Origin: Ardenticatena sp.
GTDB taxonomy: Bacteria > Chloroflexota > Anaerolineae > Ardenticatenales > Ardenticatenaceae
Length of the DNA: 64,000 bases
Direction of reading: 5' to 3'
NCBI GenBank assembly: GCA_015487975.1
Contig: WFOS01000092.1
Span: 1-64,000 of the forward strand
A model generated the notes under the pieces. The model was given only the letters and a program-made list of their open reading frames with translations. It had not been told where the DNA came from and did not search any database. Shown here in pieces: positions 24,594 through 30,474 of this stretch (the stretch's first letter is position 1; every line of letters starts with the position of its first letter). The translations under genes were made by a program, and so were the position numbers.

Positions 24594-25232
24594 TTACGGG
24601 CAAACGACGGAAAGCGAGACATCATCGATGAAGAAACTCGTTGGATTGTTGTTGTCGGTTGTTGTCTCGAAGGACAGAACCACGGTACGCCCGGCGTATG
24701 TCGACACCGGTAGAGGCCACGTGCTCTGACGCCACGAGTTGTTTGCATCACCATCGGTGAGTGTTTCGATAGTTTGCAAGAGAACGCCGTTCGTATCGCG
24801 CATCGCGACGGTGAGTGTATCGAACGGGTGGGTTGGTTCTGTTGTACTGACGCGCCACCAATATGAGAGCGTCGCTGCTGTCACGCCGTTGGGAATCGAG
24901 AGTGTCTGCGTCATTGTTTCTTGTACGAGATTGTCGCCTCCAAGCCACGCTTTCCATGTCCCTGAATGCGCGGGGGGTGTTGGACTGTTGTCGAAAATAG
25001 CACTCCCAACGTTGCTGCTCGTCTTCCAATATGGGTTTGGTATCCCAGCTTCGAAACTCCCGTCCTCGACGATCTCGGAACGACATGGTGCCGAAATGAA
25101 AGGAAGGTAGACAGCATTCGTTCCGCCTGTACCCGCATACGCAGGAAAGAGTGGCTTGAAAACGACGTACCCAAAGGCGCTCAGCAAGAGCAGCAAAATG
25201 GCCATGTTTTGTCGGCTGAGATGTTCGAACAT
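24594..25232 (-). CDS. Secreted/anchored protein with carbohydrate-binding-like beta-sandwich
   Basis: 212 aa. N-terminal membrane helix (residues 9-27) then a VYLPFI segment often seen after the anchor in Chloroflexota exported proteins. The rest reads as a jelly-roll domain: EDGSFEAGIPNPYWKTSS, then AHSGTWKAWLGG, LSYWWRVSTTEP, LTVAMRD and a final SFFIDDVSLSV strand, like CBM/MAM-type modules found in immune-inhibitor-A-like proteins. No catalytic motif is present. It follows the DUF5666 protein gene on the same strand, separated by a terminator. The ligand is unknown. Confidence 0.65.
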   Translation of the reverse strand: MFEHLSRQNMAILLLLLSAFGYVVFKPLFPAYAGTGGTNAVYLPFISAPCRSEIVEDGSFEAGIPNPYWKTSSNVGSAIFDNSPTPPAHSGTWKAWLGGDNLVQETMTQTLSIPNGVTAATLSYWWRVSTTEPTHPFDTLTVAMRDTNGVLLQTIETLTDGDANNSWRQSTWPLPVSTYAGRTVVLSFETTTDNNNPTSFFIDDVSLSVVCP

Positions 25233-25325: not shown

Positions 25326-27491
25326 CTACTTCCCAGCGGAGCCGATCGTGATGAAGGTGTTTTGTCCTTGGTGCTTCCCTTCCGGTTGCACCGGCTGCGG
25401 CAAGGGATTGGCCATGCCCTTATGGTCATCGGCCGGCGTGATTGGCTGTGGCGCAGGCTGAGGGGCTACCGGCTGGATCACAGGATGCGTTGGTTGAATG
25501 TCGCCTTGCCCGCCATTTTGCTTTGGATCGCCAGGCGTGTTGTTGCCCTGATTGGTCGTCGTGTTGTTCTCTTTCACTTCGATCTTGATCGCCACAACGC
25601 TCCCGTCGGCCTGCTGCATTCCTTTCACTTCGACGAGCGTGCCCACACTGAATGCACCGTGGCTTGTATCCAAGATCGTGTTGGCATCGACGATGACCGT
25701 GCGCCCTGCAATCGTCCAAGTGCCAGGGCCGGCTGCTGCTGGCATCTGTTCGATGGCCCCATTGAACTTCACATAATCACCATCGTCTTGTGTGCCGCCA
25801 TTCCGAACGTCGATCTTCGTGGCCACGATGGAGCCATCCTGATTGCGTGTTCCTTTGACTTCGACGTATGCCCCGACCGTCGCAGCCCCATGCTGTTGCT
25901 CGATAGTCGTGCTGCTCAGGACGTGAACGACTTGACCACTGACGACCCATTCGCCAATGAGGGTGCCAACCGGTAATTGTTCGACCGTCCCACGGAGCTC
26001 GACTTGATTGTCGCCATCGTGATCTTCGATGGCTTTGGTTTCCACCTTGGTTGCATTCAGGGAGCCATCGGCTTGCTCGAACCCTTCGACTTGCACATAG
26101 GCGCCGACTTCCAATGGACCATGGTCTTGTTCGAGTGTCGTTGTTGTGGTGATGTGCACGGTGCGACCGCCAATGCGCCACTCGCCATAGAGTGTTCCCG
26201 TGGGCATTTGCTCGACTGTCCCGTAGAACTTCGTGAAAACGTTCGCGCCATTGTCGTCGCCCGGTTGCTCTTGAACGTCGATTTCGACCGCATCGATGGA
26301 GCCATCGTCACGCTGATACCCTTTGACCTCGACGATACTCCCCATCACGATGGGGCCGTGTTCCTGGTCGATGCGTGTCGTTGTGGTGACGTGAACGGTA
26401 TATCCATCGACGCGCCATTCGCCCAGCAGACCATTCGGCGGCAAGTTCTCCACTGTACCTTTCATTTCGACGTATGCTCCGTTGGTGTTGGGCCCTTGCT
26501 CGACGTTGATTTCCGTCGCCAGGACGGAACCGTCTGGCTGTTCGACGCCCTTGACATCGACGAGTGCGCCAACGGCGATGTTCCCGTGGGATTGATCGAT
26601 CGTGGTGGAAATCGAAACAGTCACCGTGATGCCACTAACACGCCAATCACCGATGATACCGTTGGCAGGCAATTGCTCGATGAGCCCGCGAAATTCCGTT
26701 GCGTACCCGTTGTCATGATCATCGTTCCCAGTGCTCTGCGACTCGATCTTCTGTGCGTCGACCGTTCCGTCGGCCTGCAAGCGCCCCTCAACCTTGACAT
26801 ACGTGCCAGGCGCGATAGCACCATGTTCTTGATCGATTTGCGTGGTGGCGCTCACGTGTACAACGTAGCCAGCGATGCTCCAATCGCCAATGTACCCATT
26901 GGGTGGTATTTGTTCGACGAAGCCGTAAAACTTGAAGTCATCACCGGGTTGTCCATCGCCATCGCGCTCATCGACTTCGATGGAGGTCGCCACAATGGAA
27001 CCATCTGCTTGCTCGATCCCCTCGACTTTGACGAACGCACCGACTTGCGCCAGGCCATGTTCCTGATCGATGGTCGTTGTCGTGTCCACGTAGATGGTAC
27101 GACCCCCGACGACCCATGTCCCTAATAGGCCTGTGGTGGGCATGCTTTCGATCATGCCATACCATTCGATGTGCATATCGTTCCCATCATCGCCACCACC
27201 ACCGTTGTATTCGACGGAAATTTCGGTGGCTTCGATGGACCCATCAGCGCGTGGGTAGCCTTCGACGTGAACGAAGGCACCTACTTCGACATTTCCATGT
27301 TCTTGATCGATGGTTGTCATACTCGTGACGTGAACAGTGGTCCCACTTACGATCCAATCCCCTATGAGCCCGTTGGGTGGAAGTTGTTCGATTGTGCCGT
27401 AGAATTCATACGTATTGCCACTGTCAGCAAAGGCGACATGATATGTGGTGAAGAAGAGAAACCCGAGTAATGTGAGCAAAATACGTCTCAT
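25326..27491 (-). CDS. Secreted protein of eight tandem DUF5666-type repeats
   Basis: 721 aa. Signal peptide (about 1-22, cleavage near VAFA-DS). From residue 29 there are eight repeats with a period near 80 residues. Each opens with an (E/K)xxGxxEQxPxxGxxGxW motif, has a V-x-V-x-x-x-TxIDQEHG strand, VGAxVxVEG, and QADGSxxATxI. Opening motifs: EFYGTIEQ, EWYGMIES, KFYGFVEQ, EFRGLIEQ, EMKGTVEN, KFYGTVEQ, ELRGTVEQ, KFNGAIEQ. Linkers are rich in Gly/Asp. The C-terminal 70 residues are Pro/Gln-rich with no sorting signal. DUF5666 modules are OB-fold-like beta domains of unknown function. Repeats differ from each other, so this is an old duplication. The upstream phased repeats suggest response-regulator control. 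Confidence 0.85.
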   Translation of the reverse strand: MRRILLTLLGFLFFTTYHVAFADSGNTYEFYGTIEQLPPNGLIGDWIVSGTTVHVTSMTTIDQEHGNVEVGAFVHVEGYPRADGSIEATEISVEYNGGGGDDGNDMHIEWYGMIESMPTTGLLGTWVVGGRTIYVDTTTTIDQEHGLAQVGAFVKVEGIEQADGSIVATSIEVDERDGDGQPGDDFKFYGFVEQIPPNGYIGDWSIAGYVVHVSATTQIDQEHGAIAPGTYVKVEGRLQADGTVDAQKIESQSTGNDDHDNGYATEFRGLIEQLPANGIIGDWRVSGITVTVSISTTIDQSHGNIAVGALVDVKGVEQPDGSVLATEINVEQGPNTNGAYVEMKGTVENLPPNGLLGEWRVDGYTVHVTTTTRIDQEHGPIVMGSIVEVKGYQRDDGSIDAVEIDVQEQPGDDNGANVFTKFYGTVEQMPTGTLYGEWRIGGRTVHITTTTTLEQDHGPLEVGAYVQVEGFEQADGSLNATKVETKAIEDHDGDNQVELRGTVEQLPVGTLIGEWVVSGQVVHVLSSTTIEQQHGAATVGAYVEVKGTRNQDGSIVATKIDVRNGGTQDDGDYVKFNGAIEQMPAAAGPGTWTIAGRTVIVDANTILDTSHGAFSVGTLVEVKGMQQADGSVVAIKIEVKENNTTTNQGNNTPGDPKQNGGQGDIQPTHPVIQPVAPQPAPQPITPADDHKGMANPLPQPVQPEGKHQGQNTFITIGSAGK

Positions 27492-27799
27492 AACGAACCT
27501 CCTTGGTATGTTTGGATTGCTTTGGCATCTTCATTGTACTGTGGGGTTTTCGTGGAGGATTAAACGGCGGTTAAGGAGATGTTAAGGTGGGGTTAAAGCG
27601 AGACCCGGGTGCGATGCCTATGCCTCTCCCCTGAGTCTGCTTGGCAAGCGTTTGCCCATCGAGAGCAGTGTCGCGTAGCCCCCAAGGAGGAGCAAAAATT
27701 AGCGTCGAGGTTGATCAGTCCTACGCGATCTCCTGCATGTGCCCTATGTTGTTTTGAGATTGGGGGATTCTGCCCAAAGACAGGAACGATGGAGGATAT
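27492..27799. other. Intergenic region between DUF5666 gene and metal ABC permease
   Basis: 308 bp. The half nearest the DUF5666 gene contains its -10 and the phased operator (27533-27598). The remaining 27600-27799 shows no gene, no clear terminator for the metal operon and no riboswitch that I recognise. Confidence 0.5.
27533..27598 (-). promoter_or_regulatory. Four 11-bp-phased TTAA repeats plus -10: OmpR/PhoB-type operator-promoter
   Basis: Plus-strand TTAAAC (27560), TTAAGG (27571), TTAAGG (27582) and TTAAAG (27593) are spaced exactly 11 bp apart. On the minus strand each reads close to CTTAAC. TACAAT on the minus strand (27538-27533) can be the -10, and the nearest repeat sits where the -35 would be. 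Direct repeats at one helical turn are the binding geometry of OmpR/PhoB-family regulators and resemble cyanobacterial Pho boxes. The transcript would start about 40 bp before the DUF5666 start codon. Confidence 0.65.
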
Positions 27800-28645
27800 T
27801 TAGAAGTGGGTATGTTCCAATACATCTTCCCGCTGACGCCGGGTGCCGTAGAGCAACACAACCCCGAAGATAGTGGCTTGCAATATCACAATACTGGCAC
27901 CAGAGGCAACATCCACGTAGTAGGAAAGATACATTCCCCCGGCTCCTGTGAGGGCACCCAACACGGTTGAGAGCACCATAAGATGGTTGAAGTCGTCTGT
28001 GAGTAAGCGTGCTGTGATGGCGGGAATGACCAGAGCTGCCGCAATCAGCGTGACACCCAGAATTTGCAATGAAGCGATGAGGGCGGCTGCGAGCATGAGG
28101 GCAAAAAGCGTATCTACCCAGCCAGTTGGAACACCGTAGACGCGGGCAACGGGTTCATCGAATGTCGTGAAGAGCAGATACTTGTAGAAAAGAAGAAGCA
28201 GAAAGGTAATGGCCAGCGTGACTCCCAGCACAACCAGGACATCACCGGCTGTGACCCCCAGCACATTCCCGAAGAGTGCCGCATCGAATGAGCGTGTGAA
28301 ACGGCGATAGCGACTAATCAGCGCCACCCCAATGGCGAAGCTCGCTGTTGTGACCACACCGATGGCTGCATCGGCGCTGACTTTCGTGCGCCGTGCAAGT
28401 TGGTTGATGAGCAGTGCCGCTAGAAAGCCCCACGCACCTGCTCCCACGTAGAAATTCCACTGCAACACAAACGAGACAACCGCTCCGCCGAAAATGGCAT
28501 GCGCCAACCCGTGCCCGATGTACGACATGCCACGCAGAATGATGTAGACGCCCAGCATGCCGCAGAGCGCGCCGGCCAGCACCGCGGCTACGAATCCATT
28601 ACGAAAAAACTCGAAGGCGAATGGTTGCAGCAAGATGTCGATCAT
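27800..28645 (-). CDS. Zinc/manganese ABC transporter permease
   Basis: 281 aa, about eight membrane helices, ABC-3 family (ZnuB/MntB/TroC). Recognisable segments: FFRNGFVAAVLAGALCGMLGVYIILRGMSYIGHGLAHAIFGG, and LGVTLIAAALVIPAITARLL near the end. It forms the membrane channel for divalent metal import. Its start overlaps the stop of the ATPase gene (ATGA), so it is translationally coupled. Last gene of the hydrolase-SBP-ATPase-permease operon. Confidence 0.9.
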   Translation of the reverse strand: MIDILLQPFAFEFFRNGFVAAVLAGALCGMLGVYIILRGMSYIGHGLAHAIFGGAVVSFVLQWNFYVGAGAWGFLAALLINQLARRTKVSADAAIGVVTTASFAIGVALISRYRRFTRSFDAALFGNVLGVTAGDVLVVLGVTLAITFLLLLFYKYLLFTTFDEPVARVYGVPTGWVDTLFALMLAAALIASLQILGVTLIAAALVIPAITARLLTDDFNHLMVLSTVLGALTGAGGMYLSYYVDVASGASIVILQATIFGVVLLYGTRRQREDVLEHTHF

Positions 28646-29463
28646 GCTGTTCCCCCTTGCGTCTCGTCGGGTGGGTGCCCAGGAACATGATCGGGCAAGA
28701 TGTCGTGCAGCGTGTGTGGATGTGGGCGCTGTTGCACGATCAGCATCCCATCATGATGAATCACCATCATATCGGCGCGATAGGTGCGATTCAGAATCTC
28801 CTCGGTAAAGACTTCGTGAGGCGCCCCCTGCGCAATGATGGTTTCGTTCAGACAGACAATCCAGGGCACATGTGCAGCGGCAGTGTTCAGGTCGTGGGTG
28901 GTGAGCAAAATCGTCATCCCTTGTTGGTTCAGGTCTGCCAGCAGGTGCAGAATGTTTTCGGCGGTTTGCATGTCCACGCCCGTCGTGGGTTCGTCGAGCA
29001 CAAGCATGTCTGGCTTGGCCATGAGCGCTCGTGCCAGAAAGACACGCTGCTGTTGCCCACCCGACAAGTCGCGGATGTGACGTTTGCGTAGCGCCCCGAT
29101 GCCCAACTGCTCGAGAATCTGGCGGGCATATTCACGGTCGTCGCGGCGTGCCCAGGGCCAGAAGGGGGCGCGTCGGACCGCGCCCATAAGCACTACTTGT
29201 TCGACCGTGACGGGGAAAGACCAATCCACGGTTTCGATTTGGGGGACGTAGCCGATGCGTAACGTGGAGCGGGCGCACCAGCGTTCGCCCTGCTGAGGCG
29301 TGAGCAAGCCCAACACCAGTTTGAGCACGGTGGTTTTGCCCGCGCCGCTCGGCCCAACGATGGCGACGAATTGCCCTTCATGGATGTGCAGGGCAATGTC
29401 GCGCACAACGGGTACGCGACCGTAGCCAAATGTCACGTTGCGTAGTTCGAGGAGTGGCTCCAT
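28642..29463 (-). CDS. Zinc/manganese ABC transporter ATP-binding protein
   Basis: 273 aa. Walker A GPSGAGKTT (about 37-45), Q-loop, signature LSGGQQQR, Walker B MLVLDEP and the H-loop TTHD. The C-terminal extension (VIHHDGMLIVQQRPHPHTL) is His-rich, which is common in metal-ABC ATPases and may sense metal. It sits 7 bp after the binding-protein gene and overlaps the permease gene. Confidence 0.92.
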   Translation of the reverse strand: MEPLLELRNVTFGYGRVPVVRDIALHIHEGQFVAIVGPSGAGKTTVLKLVLGLLTPQQGERWCARSTLRIGYVPQIETVDWSFPVTVEQVVLMGAVRRAPFWPWARRDDREYARQILEQLGIGALRKRHIRDLSGGQQQRVFLARALMAKPDMLVLDEPTTGVDMQTAENILHLLADLNQQGMTILLTTHDLNTAAAHVPWIVCLNETIIAQGAPHEVFTEEILNRTYRADMMVIHHDGMLIVQQRPHPHTLHDILPDHVPGHPPDETQGGTA

Positions 29464-29470
29464 GGTCGTT

Positions 29471-30457
29471 TTACCGCGCCTGGTTGACAGCCGAATCTGG
29501 CCCTGGAATGTTGCTTGTGTCGAATTTCAAGATGGGTGTGGGGTTGCCGCCTAGGGCTTCTGCCATGATGCGGATGTTTTCTGCCATCAGTCCAAAGTAG
29601 GAGTGATTGGGGTCGCCTGGCTCGCCGGGCAGATCGTCATCGCGCAGGTCGTCGACGTAGGTAGCGCCGGTTTCGCGGGCAATTTGTTCGAGCACGGGCG
29701 AAGGAAAGACCTCTGAACCGAAGATGGCAGGCACTTGTTCGCGTCGAATTTGCTCGATGATCTCGGCAACTTCACGTGCTGAAGGTTCGGCAAAGTCGGC
29801 AGGTTGAATAGCGCCAATGACGGTCATGCCGTAGAGAGGGGCGAAGTATGCCCAGGAATCGTGATAGGTCAGCAACTTGCGATTTTTGGGTGGAATGGTC
29901 TCGATGGTGGCGCGGATAGCGGCGTCGAGTTCGCGAATACGCTGCTCGAAGGCAAGGAAGTTTTGCTCGTAATACTCAGCGTTGTCGGGGTCGGCCGCAC
30001 TCATTTCGTCTTTGGCGATTTCTGCATAGCGCAGGGCATACCATGGATTGGGCCAGAGGTGCGGATTGGGGTCGCCGGCTTCTTTGGGGAAGGAGAAGTC
30101 GTAGATGTACTCATCGGGTGTGATCGTTCGTTCGCCCAACAGGATGATTTTCGCATCGTCGCGTTTGTTGGCTTCTGCCAGACGCAGGGTCGGAAGTTCC
30201 AGGTTCAATCCGTTCAGAAAAATCAGGTCGGCTTCGGCGAGTTTACGAGCGTCGGATGGCGCCGGCTCGAAGGTGTGCGAGTCCACTCCTTCGGGGATGA
30301 TCCCACTCAGTTCGATACGGTCGCCCCCGATGTTGTAGATGATGTTCGTGATGGGGGAAACGGTGCTGACGACACGCAGTTTCCCCTCTTGGCGGATGGT
30401 GCCGCCGCAGGCGGTAAGTATGAATGCGATGAGAAGCAAGAGTGTGCGTCTATGCAT
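29471..30457 (-). CDS. Metal ABC transporter substrate-binding lipoprotein (ZnuA/TroA-like)
   Basis: 328 aa. Lipobox LTAC near residue 17. Cluster A-I metal-binding protein with three His and one Asp in the expected places: DSHTFEPAPSDARKL, PNPHLWPNPWYAL, TYHDSWAYFAPLYG and a late Asp (DDLPGEPGDPNHSYFG). The third ligand is His as in ZnuA/TroA rather than Glu as in PsaA, which favours zinc, though Mn is possible. The long His-rich loop of ZnuA is absent. ATG at 30457 has GGAGG 8 nt upstream; the in-frame ATG at 30472 overlaps that site. Confidence 0.9.
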   Translation of the reverse strand: MHRRTLLLLIAFILTACGGTIRQEGKLRVVSTVSPITNIIYNIGGDRIELSGIIPEGVDSHTFEPAPSDARKLAEADLIFLNGLNLELPTLRLAEANKRDDAKIILLGERTITPDEYIYDFSFPKEAGDPNPHLWPNPWYALRYAEIAKDEMSAADPDNAEYYEQNFLAFEQRIRELDAAIRATIETIPPKNRKLLTYHDSWAYFAPLYGMTVIGAIQPADFAEPSAREVAEIIEQIRREQVPAIFGSEVFPSPVLEQIARETGATYVDDLRDDDLPGEPGDPNHSYFGLMAENIRIMAEALGGNPTPILKFDTSNIPGPDSAVNQAR

Positions 30458-30474
30458 GGTGTTTTCCTCCATTG

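Follow-up and report, generated by a model that had tools for sequence, protein, structure and literature searches.

The closest described counterparts of the array reported here are the PhoB-PhoP-SphR Pho boxes of E. coli, B. subtilis and cyanobacteria, which are built from 11 bp tandem direct repeats of two to four units or more (PMC4415409, PMC1906773). PhoB-type regulators bind such 11 nt repeats head to tail, with one effector domain per unit (PMC4415409), and the cyanobacterial SphR box reads CTTAACCT with a 3 bp linker (N3) and a TTAAC-like core (PMC1906773). The array in the window (the whole 64 000-nucleotide stretch of Ardenticatena sp. DNA that was analysed) resembles these operators in its repeat period, in the position of its last unit in the −35 region and in having an OmpR-family response regulator (RR) as its candidate ligand. 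It is unlike a Pho box in its target, an exported DUF5666 protein, and in marking an operon of Ferric_reduct, ApbE, PepSY and Haem_bd genes with an RR and a histidine kinase (HK). Furthermore, the RRs that go with it belong to a clade other than that of the pst-linked RRs, and the pst promoter of the same genome has no comparable array.

The S. aureus SaeRS site, GTTAAN6GTTAA, shares the TTAA core and the 11 bp period (PMC5083920), but has two units rather than four and belongs to a different phylum with different targets. The window array does not match the SaeR site, as T or C instead of G precedes each TTAA on the strand of the gene. A further likeness is to the flavinylation-associated redox clusters (MsrQ-like and PepSY-like; Meheust et al., 2021, PMC8238504), in which ApbE, a Ferric_reduct-type membrane protein and PepSY occur together. 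Unlike those clusters, the set described here also has Haem_bd and DUF5666 and comes with its own OmpR-family RR/HK pair, and no [ST]GA[ST] flavinylation motif was found in the proteins of the ApbE/Ferric_reduct operon. The main text of that study makes no mention of Chloroflexi (PMC8238504).

In our view, the array is most probably a four-unit, 11 bp head-to-tail operator of the OmpR/PhoB family, its likeliest regulator being the RR of G000:C112:3947-4702 (G000 is this genome); we would assign this reading a probability of roughly three in four. To our knowledge, almost no transcription factor sites have been characterized in the phylum Chloroflexota.

The array and its promoter

On the forward strand the array spans positions 27560–27596 (TTAAACGGCGGTTAAGGAGATGTTAAGGTGGGGTTAA), with TTAA starting at 27560, 27571, 27582 and 27593, a period of exactly 11 bp, and with each TTAA followed by A or G and then by C or G. 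The original prediction described four TTAA(A/G)(C/G) copies 11 bp apart, ending where the −35 element of a TACAAT promoter would be expected; both statements are correct on re-reading of the sequence, and the last unit covers the −35 region. As the downstream gene lies on the minus strand, the array is best read as its reverse complement, (Y)TTAAY followed by 5–6 nt, and in the direction of the DUF5666 gene it is TTTAACCCCAC-CTTAACATCTC-CTTAACCGCCG-TTTAATCCTCC (Table 1). No σ70 promoter with a −35 element was detected on the minus strand of this region. The locus thus has the features of a direct-repeat operator (four tandem units, an 11 bp period, the last unit at −35 and no −35 element), and its anatomy, as judged from the sequence, is that of an activator-dependent promoter.

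Table 1. Features of the window array and its surroundings, and positions of the CTAAY arrays
Feature	Position	Strand	Details	Basis
Operator unit 1 (candidate)	27586..27596	−	TTAACCCCACC, T before: TTTAAC	sequence
Operator unit 2 (candidate)	27575..27585	−	TTAACATCTCC, C before: CTTAAC	sequence
Operator unit 3 (candidate)	27564..27574	−	TTAACCGCCGT, C before: CTTAAC	sequence
Operator unit 4 (candidate)	27553..27563	−	TTAATCCTCCA; over −35 region	
−10 element TACAAT	27533..27538	−	25 nt from start of unit 4	
Ribosome-binding site AGGAGG	27498..27503	−		sequence
Target gene; product of 721 aa, predicted to be secreted, eight DUF5666 domains (PF18914)	25326..27491	−	start codon ATG at 27491; E = 6e-106	
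znuA-znuC-znuB-type zinc ABC transporter operon, upstream neighbour	27800..30472	−	ends 308 bp before DUF5666 start	
CTAAY arrays, this genome (G000)	C103:544-581(-), C95:68066-68103(-), C7:31119-31156(-), C46:77132-77169(+), C71:15476(+)			
CTAAY arrays, relatives, part 1	L091, L093, L095, L097, L099-L104, L106, L107, L110, L173, L177			
CTAAY arrays, relatives, part 2	L180-L184, L186, L191-L193, L197, L198			

The znu operon was not counted in the regulon because it has no array upstream. The papers found on DUF5666 hold passing mentions only and nothing on function. Downstream of the DUF5666 gene and on the same strand, the window encodes a small exported protein (24594-25232, minus strand) with a weak, below-cut-off match to the MAM domain (E = 7e-4).

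Arrays of the same type and their candidate regulator

With one mismatch allowed, TTAACN6TTAAC matched few places in the genome, compared with 93 and 79 for two reversed-pattern controls, and two of the places matched are also multi-copy arrays. A search for YTAAY ×4 indicated three window-type arrays, defined in this genome by at most one mismatch to the pattern and a distance of 25 nt between the last unit and the −10 element: that of the window and those at C114 and C112. The original prediction had proposed a look for the same phased motif elsewhere in the genome, and C112 and C114 are further arrays of this type. The C114 array precedes PepSY, Haem_bd and PepSY genes. The C112 array precedes genes for a small Pro-rich protein, ApbE, a protein with an adenylate-cyclase domain, a 249-aa membrane protein, an OmpR-family RR and a HAMP/HisKA HK; the homologue of the membrane protein in a relative of the same genus (G001) scores above the cut-off for Ferric_reduct (PF01794). 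The −10 elements of the window, C114 and C112 arrays are TACAAT, TATACT and TACACT, with the last unit exactly 25 nt away in all three cases, and unit 4 of the window array has a TTAATCC core identical to that of unit 4 at C112. The same array is therefore found at an RR/HK operon and at PepSY/Haem_bd genes, as would be expected of a shared regulon. In NCBIfam the C112 RR has no equivalog above the cut-off, the best matches being YycF, MtrA, RpaB, CreB and PhoB. As putative targets, ApbE, Ferric_reduct, PepSY and Haem_bd with its CxxCH motif suggest a role in electron transfer outside the cytosol or in the redox chemistry of metals.

The arrangement is retained in relatives. The counterparts of the C114 and C112 stretches form one continuous cluster in G001, each with its own array. 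In G002, G005 and G006 a four-unit array occupies the corresponding place in the DUF5666 promoter, 25–27 nt from the −10 element, and this distance holds in all 16 of the redox/DUF5666 arrays aligned. The DUF5666 proteins of same-family genomes are only about 35–37% identical to the window protein, a divergence at which intergenic sequence would not be expected to stay similar by neutral descent. The G004 array stands in front of Haem_bd-DUF5666; since G000 and G001 have Haem_bd in the PepSY operon and G004 has it with DUF5666, genes move between operons that share the array. DUF5666 homologues adjoin Haem_bd, ApbE, Ferric_reduct and RR genes, and Caldilineales SKW222 (L167) has Haem_bd, then the array and after it DUF5666, ApbE, Ferric_reduct, RR and HK. 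An array of the same layout precedes a DUF5666 gene (PF18914) in G219, where unit 3 is ATGAC both in this array and in that of the Ferric_reduct-RR operon. In G002 and G005, AAG in unit 3 is common to the PepSY and DUF5666 arrays but absent from the pst arrays of these genomes. Both of these unit-3 changes are lineage-specific. Overall, the redox/DUF5666-type array is conserved in G001, G002, G004, G005, G017, G055, L167 and L168.

Across the class, 93 of the 298 genomes searched have a match, with about 150 places among the matches listed compared with 16 for the control. Forty places were inspected, picked from the matches listed and not at random; about ten precede pst operons and about ten precede RR-HK, PepSY, ApbE, Ferric_reduct, Haem_bd or DUF5666 genes. 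Similar arrays lie approximately 430–450 nt upstream of genes for an FAD/NAD-dependent oxidoreductase-like protein at L274, L276 and L309 (G020, G188 and G010), which are possible further redox members of the regulon.

A scan of genome contigs with the Ferric_reduct protein gave 22 loci, the closest being from Ardenticatenaceae. The array is present in eight of the ten operons with a co-directional RR (cut-off at least 17/20), the L167 array, at 16/20, being a ninth at a lower cut-off, and in none of the 12 with a different, divergent RR (Fisher p = 1.4e-4 for loci that are not fully independent phylogenetically). In shuffled versions of these regions an array arises in 0–2% per region. One RR operon, that of G036, has no array. 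In the trees the co-directional RRs form one clade (support 90/91, then 97/98 with more rows), the pst-linked RRs a separate clade (96/94) and nearly all of the divergent RRs a third. The RRs of L273 and L302, which came to notice only through the array immediately upstream of each, group with the co-directional RRs.

We note that at L153-L158, L165, L170, L237 and L238 a Ferric_reduct/ApbE/PepSY operon occurs with a divergent RR-HK pair of another RR clade and with no TTAAC array; the regulator of this operon appears to have been swapped between lineages. The RR adjoining the C95 Hsp20 gene was also considered as the regulator of the window array and was rejected, as no window-type array is found there.

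A two-component regulator, possibly of the phosphate type, had been predicted for the window array. The OmpR/PhoB-family assignment has good support: the array is kept at DUF5666 genes and at the RR/HK operon, its spacing to the −10 element is constant and it tracks one RR clade. The choice of the C112 RR as the individual regulator has fair support. The phosphate part of the prediction is disfavoured, as the pst operon of this genome has no comparable array, arrays of the same type stand at redox genes and the matrix scores given below favour the redox type.

In the mechanism that we propose, an extracytoplasmic signal would be sensed by the HK, with phosphorylation of the RR as the outcome. 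Two RR dimers, a number that the four units would fit, would bind one face of the DNA with one protomer per 11 bp unit. The last unit would place the RR where a −35 element is missing, and from there the RR would recruit σ70 RNA polymerase to the DUF5666 promoter with its TACAAT element; by analogy with PhoB, this is expected to involve contact with σ region 4. The RR would likewise regulate the PepSY/Haem_bd operon and its own operon, presumably as an activator. The DUF5666 protein would be exported and would act within an extracytosolic redox module based on flavin and heme, perhaps one for metal reduction. We lean towards the broader view that a two-component system of the class Anaerolineae, PhoB-related but with its own RR clade, runs an extracytosolic redox module including DUF5666 through four-unit TTAAC operators. 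The literature searched holds no description of this candidate regulon or two-component system. If this view is correct, DUF5666 repeat proteins gain a first testable role, and the link of this widespread domain to ApbE, Ferric_reduct and heme redox genes is its first concrete functional hypothesis. What was an isolated motif would then mark out a candidate regulon whose regulator can be named. Closely related RR clades that serve phosphate and redox genes through nearly the same box within one genome group would also offer a usable case for the study of RR specificity.

The phosphate question

The alternative that survives best, which we nevertheless consider improbable, is that the array is a genuine Pho box through which the pst-linked PhoB-like RR (G000:C115) activates the DUF5666 gene when phosphate is scarce. 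The units do resemble the SphR boxes (CTTAACCT-N3; PMC1906773), about ten of the 40 inspected places precede pst operons, and the pst operons of many members of the class have phased TTAAC arrays. The co-directional and pst-linked RR clades also have similar recognition helices (RTLDVHIxWLREK and RTVDVHVxWLREK). Given the similarity of the boxes and helices, the PhoB-like pst RR could possibly bind the window array too. However, the pst region of this genome (L141; pstSCAB at C115 with its own PhoB-like RR), where the original prediction would have had the phased motif recur, has no four-unit array scoring at least 16/20, and only a degenerate candidate could be picked out by eye. Scored against a matrix from the redox-operon arrays the window array reaches 30.6, and against one from the pst arrays 6.9; both matrices were built without this genome and rest on ten and six sites, respectively. 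No phosphate genes flank the DUF5666 gene, the neighbour being the znu-type operon, and DUF5666 co-occurs with Ferric_reduct and RR genes rather than with pst. The base after TTAAY in unit 4, a difference noticed post hoc, is C in 16 of 16 redox/DUF5666 arrays and in none of seven pst arrays.

We note that phased GTTMAC/TTAAC arrays occur at class pst operons (L119:2560-2598, L127:1265-1302, L144:8174, L145:7991, L143:7000 and L122:6575). They take the form GTTMAC-N5 ×4, often with the same 26 nt spacing, and are probably the Pho boxes of Chloroflexota, close to the redox arrays yet distinguishable from them.

It is less probable still that the operator is common to the redox-linked and phosphate RRs, with cross-regulation through near-identical recognition helices. 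The similarity of boxes and helices is consistent with this, as is the Haem_bd-DUF5666 array of G004, which scores well with both matrices (27.5 with the pst matrix and 19.0 with the redox matrix); the other DUF5666 arrays separate less cleanly than that of the window. The clearest arrays, in contrast, separate well between the two matrices.

Chance and the heat-shock arrays

A chance or non-regulatory repeat, for which the short unit length is the sole argument, is highly improbable: the window has a single TTAA ×4 with N7 spacers and 100 dinucleotide-preserving shuffles of it have none, TTAA ×3 at 11 bp has no other occurrence in the 3.5 Mb, 116-contig genome, YTAAY ×4 arrays of all types number 82 in 41 genomes compared with seven for the reversed pattern, and to these are added the class-wide excess over the control and the retention of the array across genera despite diverged proteins. 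That such a layout rarely arises by chance, as the original prediction held, is borne out, and we regard the array as a real, conserved putative operator.

Equally improbable is that the window array belongs, under another regulator, to a heat-shock-associated CTAAY system, with which it shares the YTAAY core and the 11 bp phase; the CTAAY arrays have their last unit about 15 nt from the −10 element, compared with 25–27 nt for the window type, and precede chaperone genes. The OmpR/PhoB-type redox operator remains our preferred reading of the window array. The CTAAY arrays are a second phased array of the class in their own right, with approximately four CTAAY units at 11 bp and the last unit usually 15 nt from the −10 element. 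No description of them was found in the literature on Chloroflexi heat-shock motifs, and they may represent a so far undescribed element of heat-shock control in Chloroflexota. They lie upstream of genes for GroES, Hsp20, DnaK, GrpE, Clp ATPase and HtpG, identities that were checked with Pfam for nine proteins and assigned by eye from the N-termini for the rest.
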